From: Gammaproteobacteria bacterium
Lineage (GTDB): Bacteria; Pseudomonadota; Gammaproteobacteria; Eutrophobiales; Eutrophobiaceae
NCBI GenBank assembly: GCA_947480335.1
Contig: CANKCB010000009.1
Coordinates: 1-64,000, forward strand
DNA: 64,000 bases
Direction of reading: 5' to 3'
Positions 5,585-62,810 of the stretch are shown in pieces (position 1 is the stretch's first letter; every line of letters starts with the position of its first letter). The translations under genes were made by a program, and so were the position numbers. The notes under the pieces were generated by a model. It was not told the DNA's origin. It saw nothing but the letters and a program-made list of their open reading frames with translations, and searched no databases.

Positions 5585-8500
5585 TCATTTGAATATGCTC
5601 TTGAGCGCCCTGTTGATGAGTTCCTGCTTCGGGTCTATGGGTTGTTGGGCAGGCTGAGGTTCGGTTGGTTGTGTCTGGGCCGGATCCGTGGCGGGTTGTG
5701 CCTGTTCCGGTTGTGCCTGCTCCGGTTGTGATTGAGCCGGTACTCCAAGCGCACGTTGCAACACATCGCCCAGCTTTTCCTGTACTTTTTCCTGAACCGC
5801 TTTTTGTACCGCTACTTTGAGTATTTCTCCCACATCCGGCACACAGGATGGTCCATTTACCTGACCGCGGCACCGTATCGGTACACTGTAACCACCAATA
5901 TTATATCGTTCTGTACCCTGGGTGACACTGCTGGCATCGGCAGAGGCAACCAGATTGTAATCCAGCGTATCGTTGACCAGATTAATAACGGTGCCTTTAC
6001 CTGTAATCTTGATTCCTGGTGCGGTGATTAACAAATCATCACTGTTGACTACGCCATTATTGATGGCCAATGTGCTGGTAAAGGTGTCGAATGGTGTTTC
6101 TACACCCTTGTCGATAGCCATCGGTCGTTTGCTTTCGATCATGATCTCGACTTGTTCGAGTACCTTGGCCACATCAACGCCACGCAAGATGCCCTTTTCT
6201 AGCGCGACCTTGCCATTGCCACTGAGTGATTTTTTCAAGGAGTCTGTATTGTCACCTTTTGCAGAAACGCCCAGTTCGATATTGCCGGTGCCGCTAATAT
6301 TGGAAGAGCCGGTAAAATCGGTCATCAGAGGATCCATCTGGACTCCCTGCAGGGAGGATTTAAAGCTGAGTACGGGTTCTGCGCTGGTGGCATCCAGATT
6401 GATATCGCCAGCGTAACTACCTTGATACAGATTGGCGGATACTGGCGCCAGTTTGATCAGGCCATCCTTCGCATTCAACGACAGTACGATATCGGCCAGT
6501 TTCGCTTTGGATATGACCAGCTGCCCAACTTTCATATCGCCGCTGGCATTCAGACTGCGTAATAATTCAACTGGTAATTGCATGGCGGCACCGGCAGCGA
6601 CTTCCGGCGTGAGAGTTCGATTGTTACCGTCTTTCGGTGGGGGTGGCAAATATCGATCTGCGTTTAGCTGGTCAATCGTGATACCAAATTGAATCGCGGG
6701 CTTGGCAAAGTCCGTTACGGAGAGTTTGCCATCGAGTTTGGTGTCGTCGAATGCCATTGACAGTTTGCTGATATTCATCGCATTACTGGATCCATCAAAT
6801 GCTGTTGCCAGTGAGACTCTGGAATAGGCTTTTGTATCGGCGGTTATCGGTAACTCCTGATTGAGTTGTTGCAGCAGAGTGCGTAAATTGAATTCAGCTA
6901 CATTTACTTCACCGTTAAATGCCGGTGAGTTCAAGATGTTGGTCGCTTTTAGTGTTCCGGTGGCATTCAGGCCAAGACCGGTCAGGCTAAAATTGTCCAG
7001 GTTCAGTGTCTCTTTTTCCAGGTTCATCTGGGTAACGGCATTCAGTCCCAGGGTGACCGGCGAGTTCGGAATTTTTGCGCCTGCCAACACCATGGTCAAA
7101 GCGAATGGTTTAATATTCAGATTGGCGCGGTTGCCACTGATGTTCACATCCAGATTAACGGATTGCATTACTTCACCCAGCTCAGATTGATCCAGTGCTG
7201 CCAGTAAATCCTTTGGGTTGTCTGCGGACAGTTTGAACTGCCCGGTCATGCTGCCGCTGGTTTGATTCATGTTACTGGCTGTCAATGTCCCGCTGAGGTT
7301 GGTTCCCAATGCCTTGAGCGTTAATACCGGCATCTTGATATTACCGGTACCCATATCCGCATCAAAGTTTGTATTCATGACAAAGGATTTATTGGCAACA
7401 TGCGACAATTTGCTGCCATATTGTGTCAGTGCTGACTCTGCACCACCTTGCAGTTGTCCGAGTACCTGCATCAGTGTCGGCAAGTCCGGTCCGGAAGCAT
7501 TCAGGGTGCCACGGAATGCCGGCGAAGCAGATTCTATATTGGTGGCCTTGATGTCACCCTTGACGTTGGCTCCGAGCAGGTTTGCCTGCAAACCGGACAG
7601 ATCCACATCCCCGCGTTGCATGTCAGCATTGATGGTTGCGGCAAAATCAAACGAACGATTTCCCAGTTTGGCAATTTGACTGGCCAGAGGTTCGATTTCA
7701 GCGACCTTGAACAGCATGGACAAATCCTTGCCTGCCAGTTTGATCGTGGTTTGGATTGTGGGCGTGGTTGATTCGATATTACTGATCTGGATGTTACCAG
7801 CCAGGCTGGTGTCCAGTGCATCAAACTGCAAGTTATTAATCGCCAGTGTCTCATCCGCCAGATTCGCATTAATTGCGGTCTTCAGACTGATTGCCGCAGA
7901 CTTGTTTGGTACGTTCGGTCCGGTTAGCGTGGTGGTTAGTTCAAAGGGTGTGATATCAAAGGTTTCGTTGTCGAGGTCGTAGATGATGGTGCCAGACAAT
8001 TTAACGTCTGCGGCCAATTCAGGTTTGTTGGCTGCAGCATTTAATGACAGATTGAACTGGATAGGCGCACCATAAACCAGTTCGCCGGTACTCATCATCA
8101 TATTGCTGATGGTGTAGTGTGTGGCAGTTCCGCGATCATCCCAGATCAGGTTGGCATTCTGGATATCCACGCCACCGAGTATGACAGCCGCGAGCGGTAG
8201 TCCACCGGTATCTTGTGTTTCGCCACCTGAAACCAAATCCGCCCAGTTGGTCTGTCCCGCTTCATTTTTGGCAAGATTGATGGTGGCACCGTGTAGTCGG
8301 ATAGTGTCGATCTCATACTGCTCCTGTAACAATGGCATCAGTTTGATTCGAACCATGGCTTGATCGGCATGGAAGAATGGCTGGTCGCCAAAGCCACTGG
8401 CGTTGCCTATTGTCACCCCGTTCACTTCGATACCGAGCCAGGGATAAATTGTTAAACGAATATCACCGTCCATCACCAGCGTGCGGCCGGTCTGTTCAGA

Positions 8501-8623
8501 GAATTTGTCTGCAATCAATCCCTTGTAATTGTTTGGATCCAGTGTGGAGATGTAAACGACAACGGCTAGCAGACTGACCAGTAAGAGTCCCAGTAATACA
8601 CCGACAACTTTAATTGCTTTCAT
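5585..8623 (-). CDS. AsmA family envelope protein
   Basis: At 1012 residues this is a full-length AsmA-type protein: one N-terminal transmembrane helix (about 6-27), an AsmA N-domain (FSEQTGRTLVMDGDIRLTIYPW is the family hallmark around residues 41-62), a long run of repeated beta-rich segments and the C-terminal AsmA_2 domain near 750-900. Such proteins are anchored in the inner membrane and span the periplasm as a lipid-conducting groove. The end carries a Gln/Pro-rich linker with PEQAQ repeats (about 950-995) before a short basic tail, which may be a low-complexity spacer. It starts the asmA / START-like / mutY / yggX run and follows argH by 11 bases. Confidence 0.93.
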   Translation of the reverse strand: MKAIKVVGVLLGLLLVSLLAVVVYISTLDPNNYKGLIADKFSEQTGRTLVMDGDIRLTIYPWLGIEVNGVTIGNASGFGDQPFFHADQAMVRIKLMPLLQEQYEIDTIRLHGATINLAKNEAGQTNWADLVSGGETQDTGGLPLAAVILGGVDIQNANLIWDDRGTATHYTISNMMMSTGELVYGAPIQFNLSLNAAANKPELAADVKLSGTIIYDLDNETFDITPFELTTTLTGPNVPNKSAAISLKTAINANLADETLAINNLQFDALDTSLAGNIQISNIESTTPTIQTTIKLAGKDLSMLFKVAEIEPLASQIAKLGNRSFDFAATINADMQRGDVDLSGLQANLLGANVKGDIKATNIESASPAFRGTLNASGPDLPTLMQVLGQLQGGAESALTQYGSKLSHVANKSFVMNTNFDADMGTGNIKMPVLTLKALGTNLSGTLTASNMNQTSGSMTGQFKLSADNPKDLLAALDQSELGEVMQSVNLDVNISGNRANLNIKPFALTMVLAGAKIPNSPVTLGLNAVTQMNLEKETLNLDNFSLTGLGLNATGTLKATNILNSPAFNGEVNVAEFNLRTLLQQLNQELPITADTKAYSRVSLATAFDGSSNAMNISKLSMAFDDTKLDGKLSVTDFAKPAIQFGITIDQLNADRYLPPPPKDGNNRTLTPEVAAGAAMQLPVELLRSLNASGDMKVGQLVISKAKLADIVLSLNAKDGLIKLAPVSANLYQGSYAGDINLDATSAEPVLSFKSSLQGVQMDPLMTDFTGSSNISGTGNIELGVSAKGDNTDSLKKSLSGNGKVALEKGILRGVDVAKVLEQVEIMIESKRPMAIDKGVETPFDTFTSTLAINNGVVNSDDLLITAPGIKITGKGTVINLVNDTLDYNLVASADASSVTQGTERYNIGGYSVPIRCRGQVNGPSCVPDVGEILKVAVQKAVQEKVQEKLGDVLQRALGVPAQSQPEQAQPEQAQPATDPAQTQPTEPQPAQQPIDPKQELINRALKSIFK

Positions 8624-8634
8624 GGTGATTTCGC

Positions 8635-10041
8635 CTATGTGGTTTTTGCGGCATTCAGATATTCTTGCGCCTCCCGGACAGCTACCTTAACCTGGTTTGG
8701 GGCGGTGCCTCCGACATGATCTCTGGCATTAACGGAACCGGATAGTTCCAGCACACCATAGATATCCTGTTTTACGTTGCTACAAAATCGACCAAATTCT
8801 TCCAGAGTCAAACCGGATAATTCCTTGCCCTGCGCAATCGCGTAATTGACGGTCTGACCAACTGCTTCATGGGCATCCCTAAACGGCAAGCCGGTCTTGA
8901 CCAGATAATCGGCAAGATCTGTGGCCGTGGCATAACCTTGCCTGGCCGCCTGCAGCATTCTGTCGCGTTTGACTGTTATCGCCGGAATCAATCCTGCGTA
9001 TACCGACAAACAGGCTTCGACGGTATCGATTGCATCAAACAACGACAGCTTGTCTTCCTGATTGTCACGGTTGTAGGCCAGTGGCTGTGCCTTCATCAGT
9101 GTCAATAAGGCAAGCAGATCCCCATAAACCCGTCCGGTTTTGCCTCGTACCAGTTCCGGGATGTCCGGATTTTTCTTTTGCGGCATGATCGAAGAGCCGG
9201 TGCAATAAGCGTCAGCCAGATCAATGAATCCGAACTGCGGGTTCATCCATAACACCAATTCTTCGGAAAACCGTGACAAGTGCATCATGATGATTGAGGC
9301 CACTGCGCAAAACTCAATGGCAAAGTCGCGGTCACTGACGGCATCGAGTGAATTTGCAGCAACGCTGTCGAATTTTAATAACCCGGAAGTATAGTGTCTG
9401 TCTATCGGGAAATCGGTGCCGGCGAGTGCAGCAGCACCCAGCGGCATAATATTGATTCGCTTCCGGCAATCCTGCAACCGCTGATCATCGCGTTTGAGCA
9501 TTTCAAACCAGGCCAGCATGTGGTGACCAAATGTGATCGGTTGAGCGACCTGCATATGGGTCAGGCCGGGGAGTATGGTTTCTGCCTCCCGACCTGCCAA
9601 CTCTGCCAATGCTTGCATGACGGCCTGCAACTGGTTGCGAATGGTATCAACCTCATCCCGCAGATATAAACGCAGGTCAGTTGCCACCTGATCATTACGC
9701 GAACGGGCGGTATGCAGTTTCTTGCCAGGTTCACCGATCCGCTTGACCAGTGCGGATTCAATGTTCATATGTACATCTTCCAATTCGATTTTCCAGTCAA
9801 ACTGGCCAGACTCAATCTGTTCCAGAATAGCGGTTAATCCGGTAACAATCAGTTCGCCTTCCTTTTCCGTCAGGATGCCGGTTTTGACCAGCATGCGGGC
9901 ATGCGCTATCGAACCCGTGATATCGTGCCTGTACAATCGATAGTCAAAGGAGACAGATTCAGTGAATTTCTCCACAGTTCGGTCAGTGGCCTGGGTAAAT
10001 CGACCACCCCATGGCTTTACTGTTGTATGCTTGGATGTCAT
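8635..10041 (-). CDS. argH: Argininosuccinate lyase
   Basis: The enzyme splits argininosuccinate to arginine and fumarate, the last step of arginine synthesis. The 468-residue product carries the fumarase/aspartase signature [12 protein letters not shown] at 282-293 with the catalytic serine loop, and HTARSRNDQ at 110-118, which binds substrate. The length is normal. It is transcribed away from the algZ-type sensor gene, with 77 bases between the two starts, the same neighbourhood as in Pseudomonas, where argH stands next to fimS/algZ and algR. Confidence 0.97.
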
Positions 10042-58262: not shown

Positions 58263-59303
58263 TTGCTGTTGCTGCTGACAGGGTTCAGCACAGGAAGCAT
58301 CGCCAATCATTTGCCACCCACCGACTCGTGGACCTTTACTCTCCGGTTTGAAAACGATTTGTTTAATCGCACCGACCGGTTCTATACCAATGGCATCAAA
58401 CTGAACTGGATCTCGCCGGAGCTGAAATGGTTTGAGGATCTGGCGTGGTTTAAAAAGGAAGGGTTGCCACAGCAAGGGCTGAACTGGTTTGCCTCTGTAC
58501 TACCTTATCATAAAGACGAAAGTCGCCAGCGCAACTTTTCATTGTCTGTAGGACAGATGATGTATACACCGCGAAATACGGTTGCCACAACACTGATCGA
58601 TGATGATCGCCCCTATGCAGGCTAGTTGTATGGTAGCGCGGCTTTTCATAGCAGAAATTATCGCGTGCTGGACAGCTTCGAAATCCAGGGAGGTTTCACG
58701 GGTAAATGGTCGCTGGCCCGGGAAGCCCAGAATCTGGTTCATTCAGTTCGTGGAATTCCAAAAGCAAATGGTTGGGACAACCAGATCCGCACAGAACCAG
58801 GGCTTGCACTGGTCTATGACCACAAATACCGGCTGGTTCCGCGTATCGATTTCAGTCGCCGCTGGAAGGCTGATGCGATTCTTCATGCGGGTGGCGCTTT
58901 GGGCAATGTTTACACCAACCTGAACGGTGGAATTGAACTGCGTGCCGGGTGGAACCTGCCTACTGACTTTGGTACTGCCCTAATAAGACCTGGAGGCGAT
59001 ACCAATGCGCCGGCCGATACCGCTGATGTTAGATACAGCACTGACCTGAATGCCTACAGTGCACATGTATTCATTGCCACCTCCGGGCGCATGGTGTTGC
59101 ACGATATATTTCTCGATGGTAATACGTTCAGGAGCAGTCATAAGGTCGACAAGGAATTGTTCGTCGGCGATCTGGTAGTTGGCGCCAGTATCGTGCGTCG
59201 CAAGTTCAAAATATCCTATGCGCATGTCTTTCGCAGCAATGAATTTAAAGGTCAACCCGGTGGACTGGGATTTGGGTCAATAAGTATTTCCTACACGGAC
59301 TAA
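58263..59303 (+). pseudogene. LpxR-like lipid A deacylase with in-frame stop codon
   Basis: Two adjacent stretches in the same frame (58263-58622 and 58626-59303) together read as one LpxR-family (DUF2219-type) outer membrane beta barrel. The first has a hydrophobic signal (FRLLLLLLLTGFSTGS) and FENDLFNRTDRFYTNGIKL, with the ND pair of the active site; the second closes the barrel. They meet at TAG (58623-58625) in DDRPYAG*LYGSAAF, where relatives have Trp (PYAGWLY). TGG to TAG is a single change. No ATG with a ribosome site starts the frame: the first candidates are TTG at 58263 or a GTC where a start might have been (58239). So it is likely broken, unless TAG is read through. Confidence 0.75.
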
Positions 59304-59624
59304 TCGTCCAGAGTAGTGCTCTATAACTAAAACAGCGTTACAAAAACTGTGGCCGTGCTCAAGATTATTAACTGGTGTCTGAAATATCCATGCGTGTGGT
59401 GACGAACAGACCTGAAACCGAGCCCTTTGTAGTCTGCTGATTCGGAATTTGATTTTGATCAAGCCCAAATTGCACTGTTATGCTATATTTATGACTGAAT
59501 CTGGATCGGGTTTTATTCTGAGTCATTGTTAAATAAAGCATGAGTGGCTTCAGTGCGCAAAGTGGTAACACCAAAATGACGTATATCTCCGGATAAAAAA
59601 TCCATATAAATCAAGGCAGAAAAA
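59304..59624. other. 321-base intergenic region with FNR-type promoter
   Basis: No gene was seen; the longest small frame (16 codons) is not credible. It holds the FNR-type site and extended -10 described in the next entry, and a probable 5' leader of about 130 bases for the exporter operon. Confidence 0.7.
59449..59489 (+). promoter_or_regulatory. FNR/ANR-type class II promoter of the ABC exporter operon
   Basis: TTGAT-TTTG-ATCAA (59449-59462) is a perfect FNR-family consensus site. Its centre (59455.5) lies 41.5 bases before a start predicted from an extended -10 box TGCTATATT (59481-59489), which gives about 59497. That spacing is the textbook class II FNR arrangement. So the downstream operon is probably induced when oxygen is low, or by a related Crp/Fnr protein. 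Confidence 0.7.
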
Positions 59625-60878
59625 TTGACCAATAACTCATCATTGTCCGCACCAAAGTCATGGAAAAATCAATCCGGGTGGAAGTGGTTGCCAGGGATCC
59701 TTGTGGTTCTGTTTCTACTGTCCTGGTTGTTTCGTAATACGCTGCTCGGCCCATTGGTCGATACGTATGCTGTGACGATGGGCGACCTGACACAGACAGT
59801 TGTTGCCAGTGGTCGTATAGTCACCCCACAACGCATCGCTATTTCTGCACAGTTGCTTGCACGCGTACAAAATATGACCGTTGCAGAAGGCAGCACGGTT
59901 ACCGAAGGTCAGCTGCTGGTTGAGCTGAATGACGAAGACGCGCGCGCGAATCTGGCCCAGGCCAGTGCTGCAGTCGAGCAGGCGAGTGCACGTTTGCGAT
60001 CAATACAGGAGCTTGAGCTCCCAGCCGCGCAACATAACCTGGATGAAACACAGGCCAATTTGTTGCAAGCCGGCAAGCAGCTCGTACGGATACAGGATTT
60101 GAAGAAAAATGGGTTTGTAGGCCAATCTGATCTTGATAACGCGCAACGTAATTTTGATATAGCTCAAAGTCAGGTGGATTCTGCGAGCTTGCAAATTCTC
60201 GCACGTCAGCCATCTGGAAGTAGTTATGTCGTGGCTGAAACGGCGCTGACACAAGCGCAAGCGGTTTTCCAACAGGCATCGGTAAAGCTGGCGCAATACC
60301 GTATTCTGGCGCCGGTTAATGGCACGCTGATAAGTCGCGAAGCGGAAGCGGGTGATATTGTTCAGCCCGGGCAGGAACTGATGTTGCTGGCAGGCGCGGG
60401 CAAAAGCCAGATTGAAGTGCAACTGGATGAAAAAAATCTTTCCAGAATCCAGATCGGTCAACCTGCATTGGCTTCCGCTGATGCGTTTGCCAGTGATCGC
60501 TTTGAAGCAAAAGTTTCCTATATCAATCCAGGTATCGATGCCACACGTGGTGCCGTCGAGGTCAAACTTGATGTGCCAGTGCCACCCGAATATTTACGAC
60601 AGGACATGACAGTGTCGGTGGATATACATACTGCACAAAGAGAGGGCGTCATGGTGATTCCTACGGGCACGACACATGATATTTCAGGTGCAGAGCCCTG
60701 GGTGATGGTGGTGCGTCAGCGTCGTGCCGTACGTCAACCGGTTGAATTGGGGCTACGTGGTGATGAAAATGTCGAGGTACTGAAGGGCCTGTCAACCGGT
60801 GAACCGGTTGTTTCAGCAAGTATAAAAACGGTGGTTGAGGGTGCACGCGTGCGTGCACGTCCGGTTAAGACGCAATGA
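59625..60878 (+). CDS. HlyD-type periplasmic adaptor
   Basis: The 417-residue protein has one N-terminal membrane helix (about 21-36), a biotinyl-lipoyl-like domain (GRIVTPQRIAISAQLLARVQ and its partner near 210-240: YRILAPVNGTLISREAEAGDIV), a long coiled hairpin between (about 85-200), and beta barrel and MP domains after. It starts with TTG (59625-59627) with AAGG before it; no in-frame ATG fits. It links the inner-membrane ABC parts to an outer channel such as TolC, not found here. Confidence 0.92.
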   Translation: MTNNSSLSAPKSWKNQSGWKWLPGILVVLFLLSWLFRNTLLGPLVDTYAVTMGDLTQTVVASGRIVTPQRIAISAQLLARVQNMTVAEGSTVTEGQLLVELNDEDARANLAQASAAVEQASARLRSIQELELPAAQHNLDETQANLLQAGKQLVRIQDLKKNGFVGQSDLDNAQRNFDIAQSQVDSASLQILARQPSGSSYVVAETALTQAQAVFQQASVKLAQYRILAPVNGTLISREAEAGDIVQPGQELMLLAGAGKSQIEVQLDEKNLSRIQIGQPALASADAFASDRFEAKVSYINPGIDATRGAVEVKLDVPVPPEYLRQDMTVSVDIHTAQREGVMVIPTGTTHDISGAEPWVMVVRQRRAVRQPVELGLRGDENVEVLKGLSTGEPVVSASIKTVVEGARVRARPVKTQ

Positions 60879-62101
60879 AACAGTTATTAACGTATGAATG
60901 GATACTTTCGACCCGCTTTATGCGTGAAGGGATAATGCAAACATTGTTAATAATCTCCGGCGTAGCGCTGGGGGTTTCAGTCATCGTATTTATCTCAGCT
61001 CTTATTAGTGGTTTGCAAACCAATCTGTTCCGCCGCACGCTCGATTATCAGGCGCAAATTGTCATTCGTCCTCCCAGAGAAGTAGCGCGTTCCTTGCGTA
61101 AATCGGATGTTGGATTGCAGGCAACTTTGGTACAGCCTCGCGCCCAGAGATTGCGTTCAGTGGATCAATGGCAAACAGTAAGCAGGATGCTGGAAAAAAT
61201 GCCCGAAGTAGAAGTAGTCGCGCCGGTAGTGGCCGGTGCCGGGTTTGTAATCAGAGGCGATGCGAACAAAGCGGTCAATCTTACCGGTATGGAACCACAA
61301 AGCTATTTACGACTGATAGCATTGGAAAAACAATTGATTGCGGGTACGGCCAGGGTAGGGCCAGCAGATATTCTGATTGGTAATGAATTGGGGCACGATC
61401 TAGGCGTAGGAGTAGGTGACAAGCTGATTTTGCAAACAGCAAGCAAGGCCAGTGTCACATTGACGATCTGTGGCATTTTTGATTTTGGAAATAAAGGTAT
61501 CAATGAACGCTCAGTTTATGTCGCCTTGCGTACAGCCCAAAGCCTGCTTAACTTGCCGGGTGGTGTTACTACTGTTGAAGTCAATGTGGAAAAACCGTTT
61601 GATGCTGAACTGGTCGCGCAAGTTATCAGTGCGCAGACTGGTCTGGATGTTGAAAGCTGGATCGTTTTGAATGCCCAGTTTTTCAGCGCGTTGCAGGCGC
61701 AATCCATGTCCAATTTCATTATTCGTTTCTTCGTTGGTCTTACGGCCGCATTGGGAATAGCCAGTGTACTGGTCGTTTCTGTCGTGCAGAAGTCCAGGGA
61801 AATCGGAATCCTGCGTGCGACCGGCGCGACACGCAACCAGATTCTTCGTGTGTTCCTGTTACAAGGAGCGGTGATGGGGTTGCTGGGTTCGCTGATTGGT
61901 TCATTCGCAGGCTGGCTATTTCTGATTGCGTGGCGTGGTATTGCCATCAATGCCGACGGTACTCCGCTATTTGTTATCGAGTTTGATCCGATGCTATTTG
62001 TCTGGGCCGCTGTAGGTGCAACGCTGGTCGGCACTCTGGCGGCAGTTTTCCCTGCACGTACAGCGGCAAAACTGGATCCTGCAGTAGCAATTCGTGGCTG
62101 A
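60875..62101 (+). CDS. ABC transporter permease (FtsX/MacB-type)
   Basis: The 408-residue protein has one membrane helix near 20-45, a large periplasmic MacB_PCD-like domain and three membrane helices (about 270-300, 320-350, 370-395) with the FtsX signature [20 protein letters not shown]. Unlike MacB it has no fused ATPase. The operon order adaptor-permease-ATPase equals that of DevBCA-like exporters. It overlaps the adaptor by ATGA. Confidence 0.92.
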
Positions 62102-62810
62102 AACACAAACACTGCGTCTGCAGGGAGTTCGTAAAGCCTATGGCGTGGGTACTGTGGCTGAGATGGAAGTATTGCACGGTATAGACCTGACGATACAAAA
62201 GGGTGAATTCACTGCGCTGATAGGGCCATCCGGTTCCGGTAAAAGTACCTTGCTCAATCTGATTGGCTTACTGGATCATCCAACAGCAGGTCAACTATTT
62301 CTGACAGGAGTGGAAGCAACCGGTCTGGATGATGCCGATTTGACAAGGTTACGTGCCACGGCAATTGGATTTGTTTTTCAGTCACATAACCTGCTTCCGG
62401 CATTTACCGCAGAAGAAAATGTCATGTTGCCACTGCTGGCTGCGCGTGGGCGACCAGATAAGGATATGCAAAAACGTGCTGAAGGATTAATCGAGGCAGT
62501 TGGTTTGACGCCATGGTCCAGTCACCTTACAAATGAACTGTCCGGTGGACAACAACAGCGTGTTGCAATTGCCCGTGCGCTGATTATGCAACCTGCACTG
62601 GTACTTGCCGATGAACCCACTGGCAATCTGGATACCCAGACCGCAGACAGTGTGTTTGATCTGCTCAGAAAGATTAACCTGGAAAGCCGCACCAGTTTTT
62701 TGATTGTCACGCATGACAAACGTCTTGCCCAACGCTGCGATCGTATTATTGAACTGGTCGATGGAAGGATTGCGTCAGATAAGGTTAATGCGGTGATTAA
62801 TCCGGAATAA
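62094..62810 (+). CDS. ABC transporter ATP-binding protein (LolD/MacB-like)
   Basis: The 238-residue ATPase has Walker [10 protein letters not shown] at 44-52, the [15 protein letters not shown] signature and [13 protein letters not shown] as Walker B with D-loop, the form of MacB/LolD ATPases. It starts at GTG (62094) overlapping the permease by 8 bases. It powers the three-gene exporter; substrate unknown. Confidence 0.95.

Follow-up and report, generated by a model that had tools for sequence, protein, structure and literature searches.

FNR is an oxygen-sensing regulator, and promoters activated by FNR- and ANR-type proteins carry the box TTGAT-N4-ATCAA, as given in sections of PMC6588701 and PMC7349173. 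Among the closest described systems are the class II promoters of Pseudomonas Anr and of the cld gene of Ideonella. From the same section of PMC7349173 come a discussion of an extended -10 element in the FNR-type cld promoter, the class II range that we used here (box centre at 41.5 ± 4 bases upstream of the start) and ETxSR as the motif for TTGAT recognition. In Rhodobacter sphaeroides, the FnrL target table in the relevant section of PMC2908626 includes uspA, ccpA1 and ccpA2.

The window, a 64-kb stretch of DNA analysed at its full length, encodes on its forward strand an exporter built from the same parts as MacAB/LolCDE-type ABC exporters: a periplasmic adaptor of the HlyD/RND_mfp family (59625-60878, 417 aa, TTG start; TIGR01730 180.3 bits, cut-off 94.9), a MacB/FtsX-type ABC permease (60875-62101, 408 aa) and a LolD/MacB-like ATPase (62094-62810, 238 aa). 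MacB is a one-piece protein, whereas the permease and the ATPase are separate here. A test for LolCDE failed, with scores below the LolCE and LolD cut-offs (TIGR02212, 159.3 of 362.45 bits; TIGR02211, 246.8 of 307.75 bits). Upstream, on the same strand, lies an LpxR-type gene of the lipid A deacylase family (58263-59303) with an in-frame TAG at 58623-58625; the halves on either side of it cover positions 11-108 and 111-322 of the 323 in PF09982.

In front of this operon the first-pass annotation had described a textbook FNR-type promoter, and its reading of the DNA was correct. The box TTGATTTTGATCAA (59449-59462, + strand) matches TTGAT-N4-ATCAA at 10/10 defined positions and is the sole perfect copy in the window. 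Allowing one mismatch, the window holds 9 matches vs a shuffle mean of 3.74, a count equalled by 1 of 100 shuffles. An extended -10 element recognised by inspection, TGCTATATT, lies at 59481-59489 on the same strand (hexamer 59484-59489), with 21 bases between the box and the hexamer. With the hexamer taken as -12 to -7, transcription is predicted to begin at 59496, which centres the box at -40.5; the start at 59497 given in the first-pass annotation makes it -41.5. Both starts are predictions from the -10 position and the box spacing. The box is shared with the Pseudomonas Anr and Ideonella cld promoters and the extended -10 with cld, and the centre as predicted would lie near -41.5 as it does there. 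Of the genome's eight intergenic boxes (see below), scored in both directions, it is the exporter box whose -10 at class II spacing scores highest. A sigma-70 scan of 59200-59800 predicted no -35/-10 pair, a result that fits an activator-dependent or extended -10 promoter, and no intrinsic terminator was predicted in the same interval. The TTG start of the first exporter gene at 59625 is preceded by AAGG at 59613-59616, and with the predicted start the leader would be ~128 nt long.

Unlike the Pseudomonas and Ideonella systems, the present genome (G000; 2,422,416 bases, 27 contigs, 95.18% complete) yielded no intact FNR-type protein. The search for an fnr or anr gene that had been proposed as a check on the promoter reading returned only a 34-codon stub and a Crp-like gene with an in-frame stop. 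The stub was found by searching the genome with three joined proteins of the congener G002 (FNR, a Rieske oxygenase and an unclassified neighbour). At the syntenic locus, C4:145356-145614 (L104 3357-3615), only FNR residues 1-34 are left (145356-145457, 76% identical to G002); three cysteines are kept, and the sensor domain and the helix-turn-helix are absent. One base after the stub comes the tail of the Rieske protein (residues 388-439, the last 52 codons; 145459-145614, 54% identity). The unclassified neighbour gene is found at C4:143758-145074, and the flanks are recognisable against the G001 locus, with 84% identity for the unclassified gene, 75% for an ankyrin-repeat gene and 82% for a DUF1552 gene. 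The amidohydrolase gene that lies between the Rieske and ankyrin genes in G001 had no match in this stretch of G000. As the syntenic locus is assembled and holds a stub, we rejected the idea of an orthologous fnr hidden in an assembly gap, and attribute its absence to a deletion at the native locus. For the assembly, the inference of oxygen control drawn from the box fails on this stub. A full Rieske paralogue survives elsewhere on the same contig (C4:111888-113207).

The first-pass annotation had cautioned that other Crp/Fnr proteins use the same box, a caveat that does not rescue the regulatory reading: an FNR-type protein with [4Fe-4S] cysteines and an ETxSR helix was not found in the 95.18%-complete assembly. 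PF13545 and PF00325 gave one match each, both to the same Crp-like gene (C1:257649-258209, L018), which reached 45.1 bits with the FNR model NF008365 (cut-off 228). An in-frame TAA interrupts the cyclic-nucleotide domain of this gene, and its recognition helix reads SREMVGR, not ETxSR; we take this helix to be Crp-type by comparison with E. coli CRP. On both grounds Crp is unlikely to read the box. The genome encodes four other proteins with cyclic-nucleotide domains (a rhodanese fusion, a kinase fusion, a stand-alone domain and a double domain), none with a DNA-binding domain by Pfam.

We followed fnr through the genus and the family. G001 and G002 have an intact fnr with an N-terminal cysteine cluster and an ETVSR helix (Pfam domains checked for G002), flanked on one side by a Rieske-oxygenase gene and on the other by one that has no Pfam match. 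In G003 the gene (L091 ~8000-8800, C42) is broken by internal stops, and the first cysteine of its cluster motif is changed. In G004, listed as 100% complete, there was no fnr match beyond the Crp-like gene. Judged from these loci, fnr would have been lost at least twice, perhaps three times, within the genus (the G000 stub, the multi-stop pseudogene of G003, and G004, in which it was not found). The crp-like gene is damaged in both G000 and G004, the two genomes that yielded no whole fnr. The Crp-like protein of G004 (L138 315-998, C6) lacks, ahead of its DNA-binding domain, a short in-frame segment that is kept in G001. Across the family, 25 of 40 genomes (G000 included) had an FNR match over the cut-off, a figure that counts the stop-containing G003 gene.

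These data bear on the possibility that the promoter still works under oxygen control, with an FNR/ANR or DNR-type protein encoded in unassembled DNA activating the exporter at -41.5. The perfect box, its spacing and the extended -10 are what such a promoter would show, boxes are kept at usp and ytkA (see below), and four family members (G009, G016, G022 and G023) have a second FNR-type protein of >200 bits. At a completeness of 95.18, ~5% of the genome could be absent from the assembly, and a second FNR paralogue may lie there; other cells of the population could also have kept fnr. However, the fnr locus of the genus is present and carries only the stub, and G001, G002 and G003 each have a single match of >200 bits, so that the genus would not be expected to have a second copy. 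We hence consider a working oxygen-controlled promoter unlikely.

We think it likely that the exporter had an FNR-activated (class II) promoter in the past, and that its activator has since been lost. On the evidence of conserved boxes and of the intact fnr in two congeners, the genus has an FNR-type regulon, with boxes, presumably bound by FNR, before genes such as usp and the ytkA/cytochrome-peroxidase pair. In G000, a deletion has joined the 34th codon of fnr to the end of the adjacent Rieske-oxygenase gene, leaving the exporter box without a matching regulator in the assembly and probably in the cell. The promoter, which was once activated by FNR or could have been, would now be driven weakly and independently of FNR from its extended -10, or be nearly silent. 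The box is thus probably an orphan relic that gives no clue to the exporter's present role. It is improbable, in our view, that what we see is an orphan FNR regulon in the making, in which another factor reads the boxes or the promoters have been rewired to run activator-free.

The site itself is of a known kind; what is unusual is that boxes are still there although their regulator has demonstrably been deleted. A perfect box for a regulator is commonly read as evidence of regulation. Here the regulator's own locus shows a deletion, and anyone who assigned the exporter to anaerobic physiology on the strength of the box would be misled. A narrow literature search on FNR loss, regulon evolution and orphan binding sites gave no title on such a case among the matches listed, and an equally narrow one on fnr pseudogenes and genome reduction found nothing. 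With fnr intact, decaying, reduced to a stub or not found, the genus forms a small natural series for following the fate of binding sites after the loss of a global regulator.

A box of this length can also occur by chance, as an AT-rich intergenic palindrome that happens to precede a -10. To the genome-wide search for further TTGAT-N4-ATCAA sites that had been suggested, the answer is 12 perfect boxes in total, the window's own included. This number is not above the Markov expectation of 8.7-11.9 (orders 2-4, trained on the window), and we therefore rejected the total as evidence of regulation. A reversed-pattern control gave 1 match with 0.34-0.42 expected, and was judged misleading, since G000 is poor in the reversed words. 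Placement is more telling: 8/12 boxes are intergenic, vs 0.43-0.74 expected in ~222 kb of intergenic DNA (intergenic being defined by ORFs of at least 100 aa, and the expectation coming from order 0-2 models trained on the window's intergenic DNA). Yet the matched control palindrome TGATT-N4-AATCA, present in 8 copies, has 3/8 in intergenic DNA where 0.43-0.90 were predicted. The control also exceeds its prediction, which shows that the model overstates the placement effect, and with such small samples placement alone cannot separate the box from the control (8/12 vs 3/8; Fisher P 0.36, not significant). The enrichment over the model is clear, and that over the control palindrome is unproven. 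The weight is carried only by the usp/ytkA conservation and by this intergenic placement, itself not significantly above the control.

Conservation of the site upstream of related exporters had also been put forward as a check on the claim, and it did not bear the claim out. Of 53 family genomes, G000 counted among them, just two others gave permease matches at E <= 1e-40: G001 and G004, both at 47% identity. In the 11 kb surrounding these two permease loci there was no match to the five neighbour genes of the window that we tested, and upstream of their adaptor gene no box was present even at 2 mismatches. A first scan for relatives with the permease alone returned none. An alignment scan gave six exporter relatives, 47-48% identical, two of which appear to be the G001 and G004 loci. 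Taking the position of each adaptor start as reference, a box with up to 2 mismatches was found in 0/6 of them between 1.2 kb upstream and 0.1 kb inside the adaptor gene, a weak test, as at 47-48% identity these are perhaps not true orthologues. Two public metagenome records among these, CAMBTO010000019.1 (L143, G004-like) and CAMDWI010000001.1 (L145, G001-like), are titled Klebsiella pneumoniae, a title that looks wrong.

Since the exporter box is not conserved in these relatives, and 3/8 control palindromes are intergenic as well, the box may never have been an FNR site. We nevertheless hold a chance match to be an unlikely explanation: the Markov-level total and the empty relatives agree with it, as does the control that is not significantly below 8/12, but it has to account for 8 intergenic boxes against 0.43-0.74 expected and for an extended -10 at class II spacing with the best score of the eight sites. 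For this genome, oxygen control through FNR as a first clue to the exporter's role is not supported, given the fnr stub, the stop in the Crp-like gene and the absence of the box from 6/6 relatives.

The seven further intergenic boxes lie near a redox-flavoured set of genes. Five of them are near usp, an FTR1/cytochrome c gene, a cupin gene, a nitrite/sulfite reductase and a multicopper oxidase. Of the other two, one lies between an adaptor gene and ytkA, after which comes a di-haem cytochrome c peroxidase (CCP_MauG), and one between cytochrome b561 and a chromate transporter. We scanned congeners G001-G004 for their conservation, taking homologue rows at E <= 1e-15 and, within 450 bases, boxes of at most 2 mismatches. 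The usp box recurs in 4/4 congeners, with 0, 0, 0 and 1 mismatches. The ytkA box also recurs in 4/4. Two copies have 1 mismatch; the other two (G002 and G003) are perfect but weaker as evidence, since they depend on partial alignments starting at residues 12 and 60. A further ytkA homologue of G004 (L137) had no box, and the adaptor gene beside ytkA gave no homologue row in G001-G004. For ftr1, a box with 1 mismatch was present in 1/3 congeners found, and for the multicopper oxidase, boxes with 1 mismatch lie beside the closest homologue in G001 and in G003, with none at up to 1 mismatch in three further homologue rows. For the other sites the counts were 0/4 for the nitrite/sulfite reductase at up to 1 mismatch, 0/5 rows for the cupin gene, 0/6 rows for cytochrome b561 and 0/2 rows for the chromate transporter (one G004 gene at two loci). 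Most boxes of G000, the exporter box included, are not conserved.

The recurrence of the usp and ytkA boxes in all four congeners suggests that the genus has an FNR-type regulon. Two of its members appear to be retained in G000, with FNR presumably as the protein that bound them. The boxes before usp and before the ytkA/CCP_MauG pair resemble the R. sphaeroides FnrL regulon as far as the relevant section of PMC2908626 lists its targets. Unlike R. sphaeroides, in which FnrL exists, G000 shows only an fnr stub, and the exporter is an additional site.

The usp box is perfect in G000 and in G004, both without a whole fnr found, although its flanks have diverged. Such undecayed boxes could reflect a recent loss of fnr or another binder. 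If boxes were truly maintained without FNR this would be of real interest, yet recent loss is the simpler reading. A DNA-binding protein from outside the Crp/Fnr family that now reads the box, and so keeps an orphan regulon alive after the loss of FNR, would explain the perfect usp boxes. We judge this very unlikely: no candidate protein was identified, recent loss of fnr accounts for the retention of the boxes equally well, and only 2/8 intergenic sites recur in all four congeners. In G002, where fnr is intact, the stretch between fnr and the Rieske gene downstream of it holds a further perfect FNR box (L090 7344-7357).
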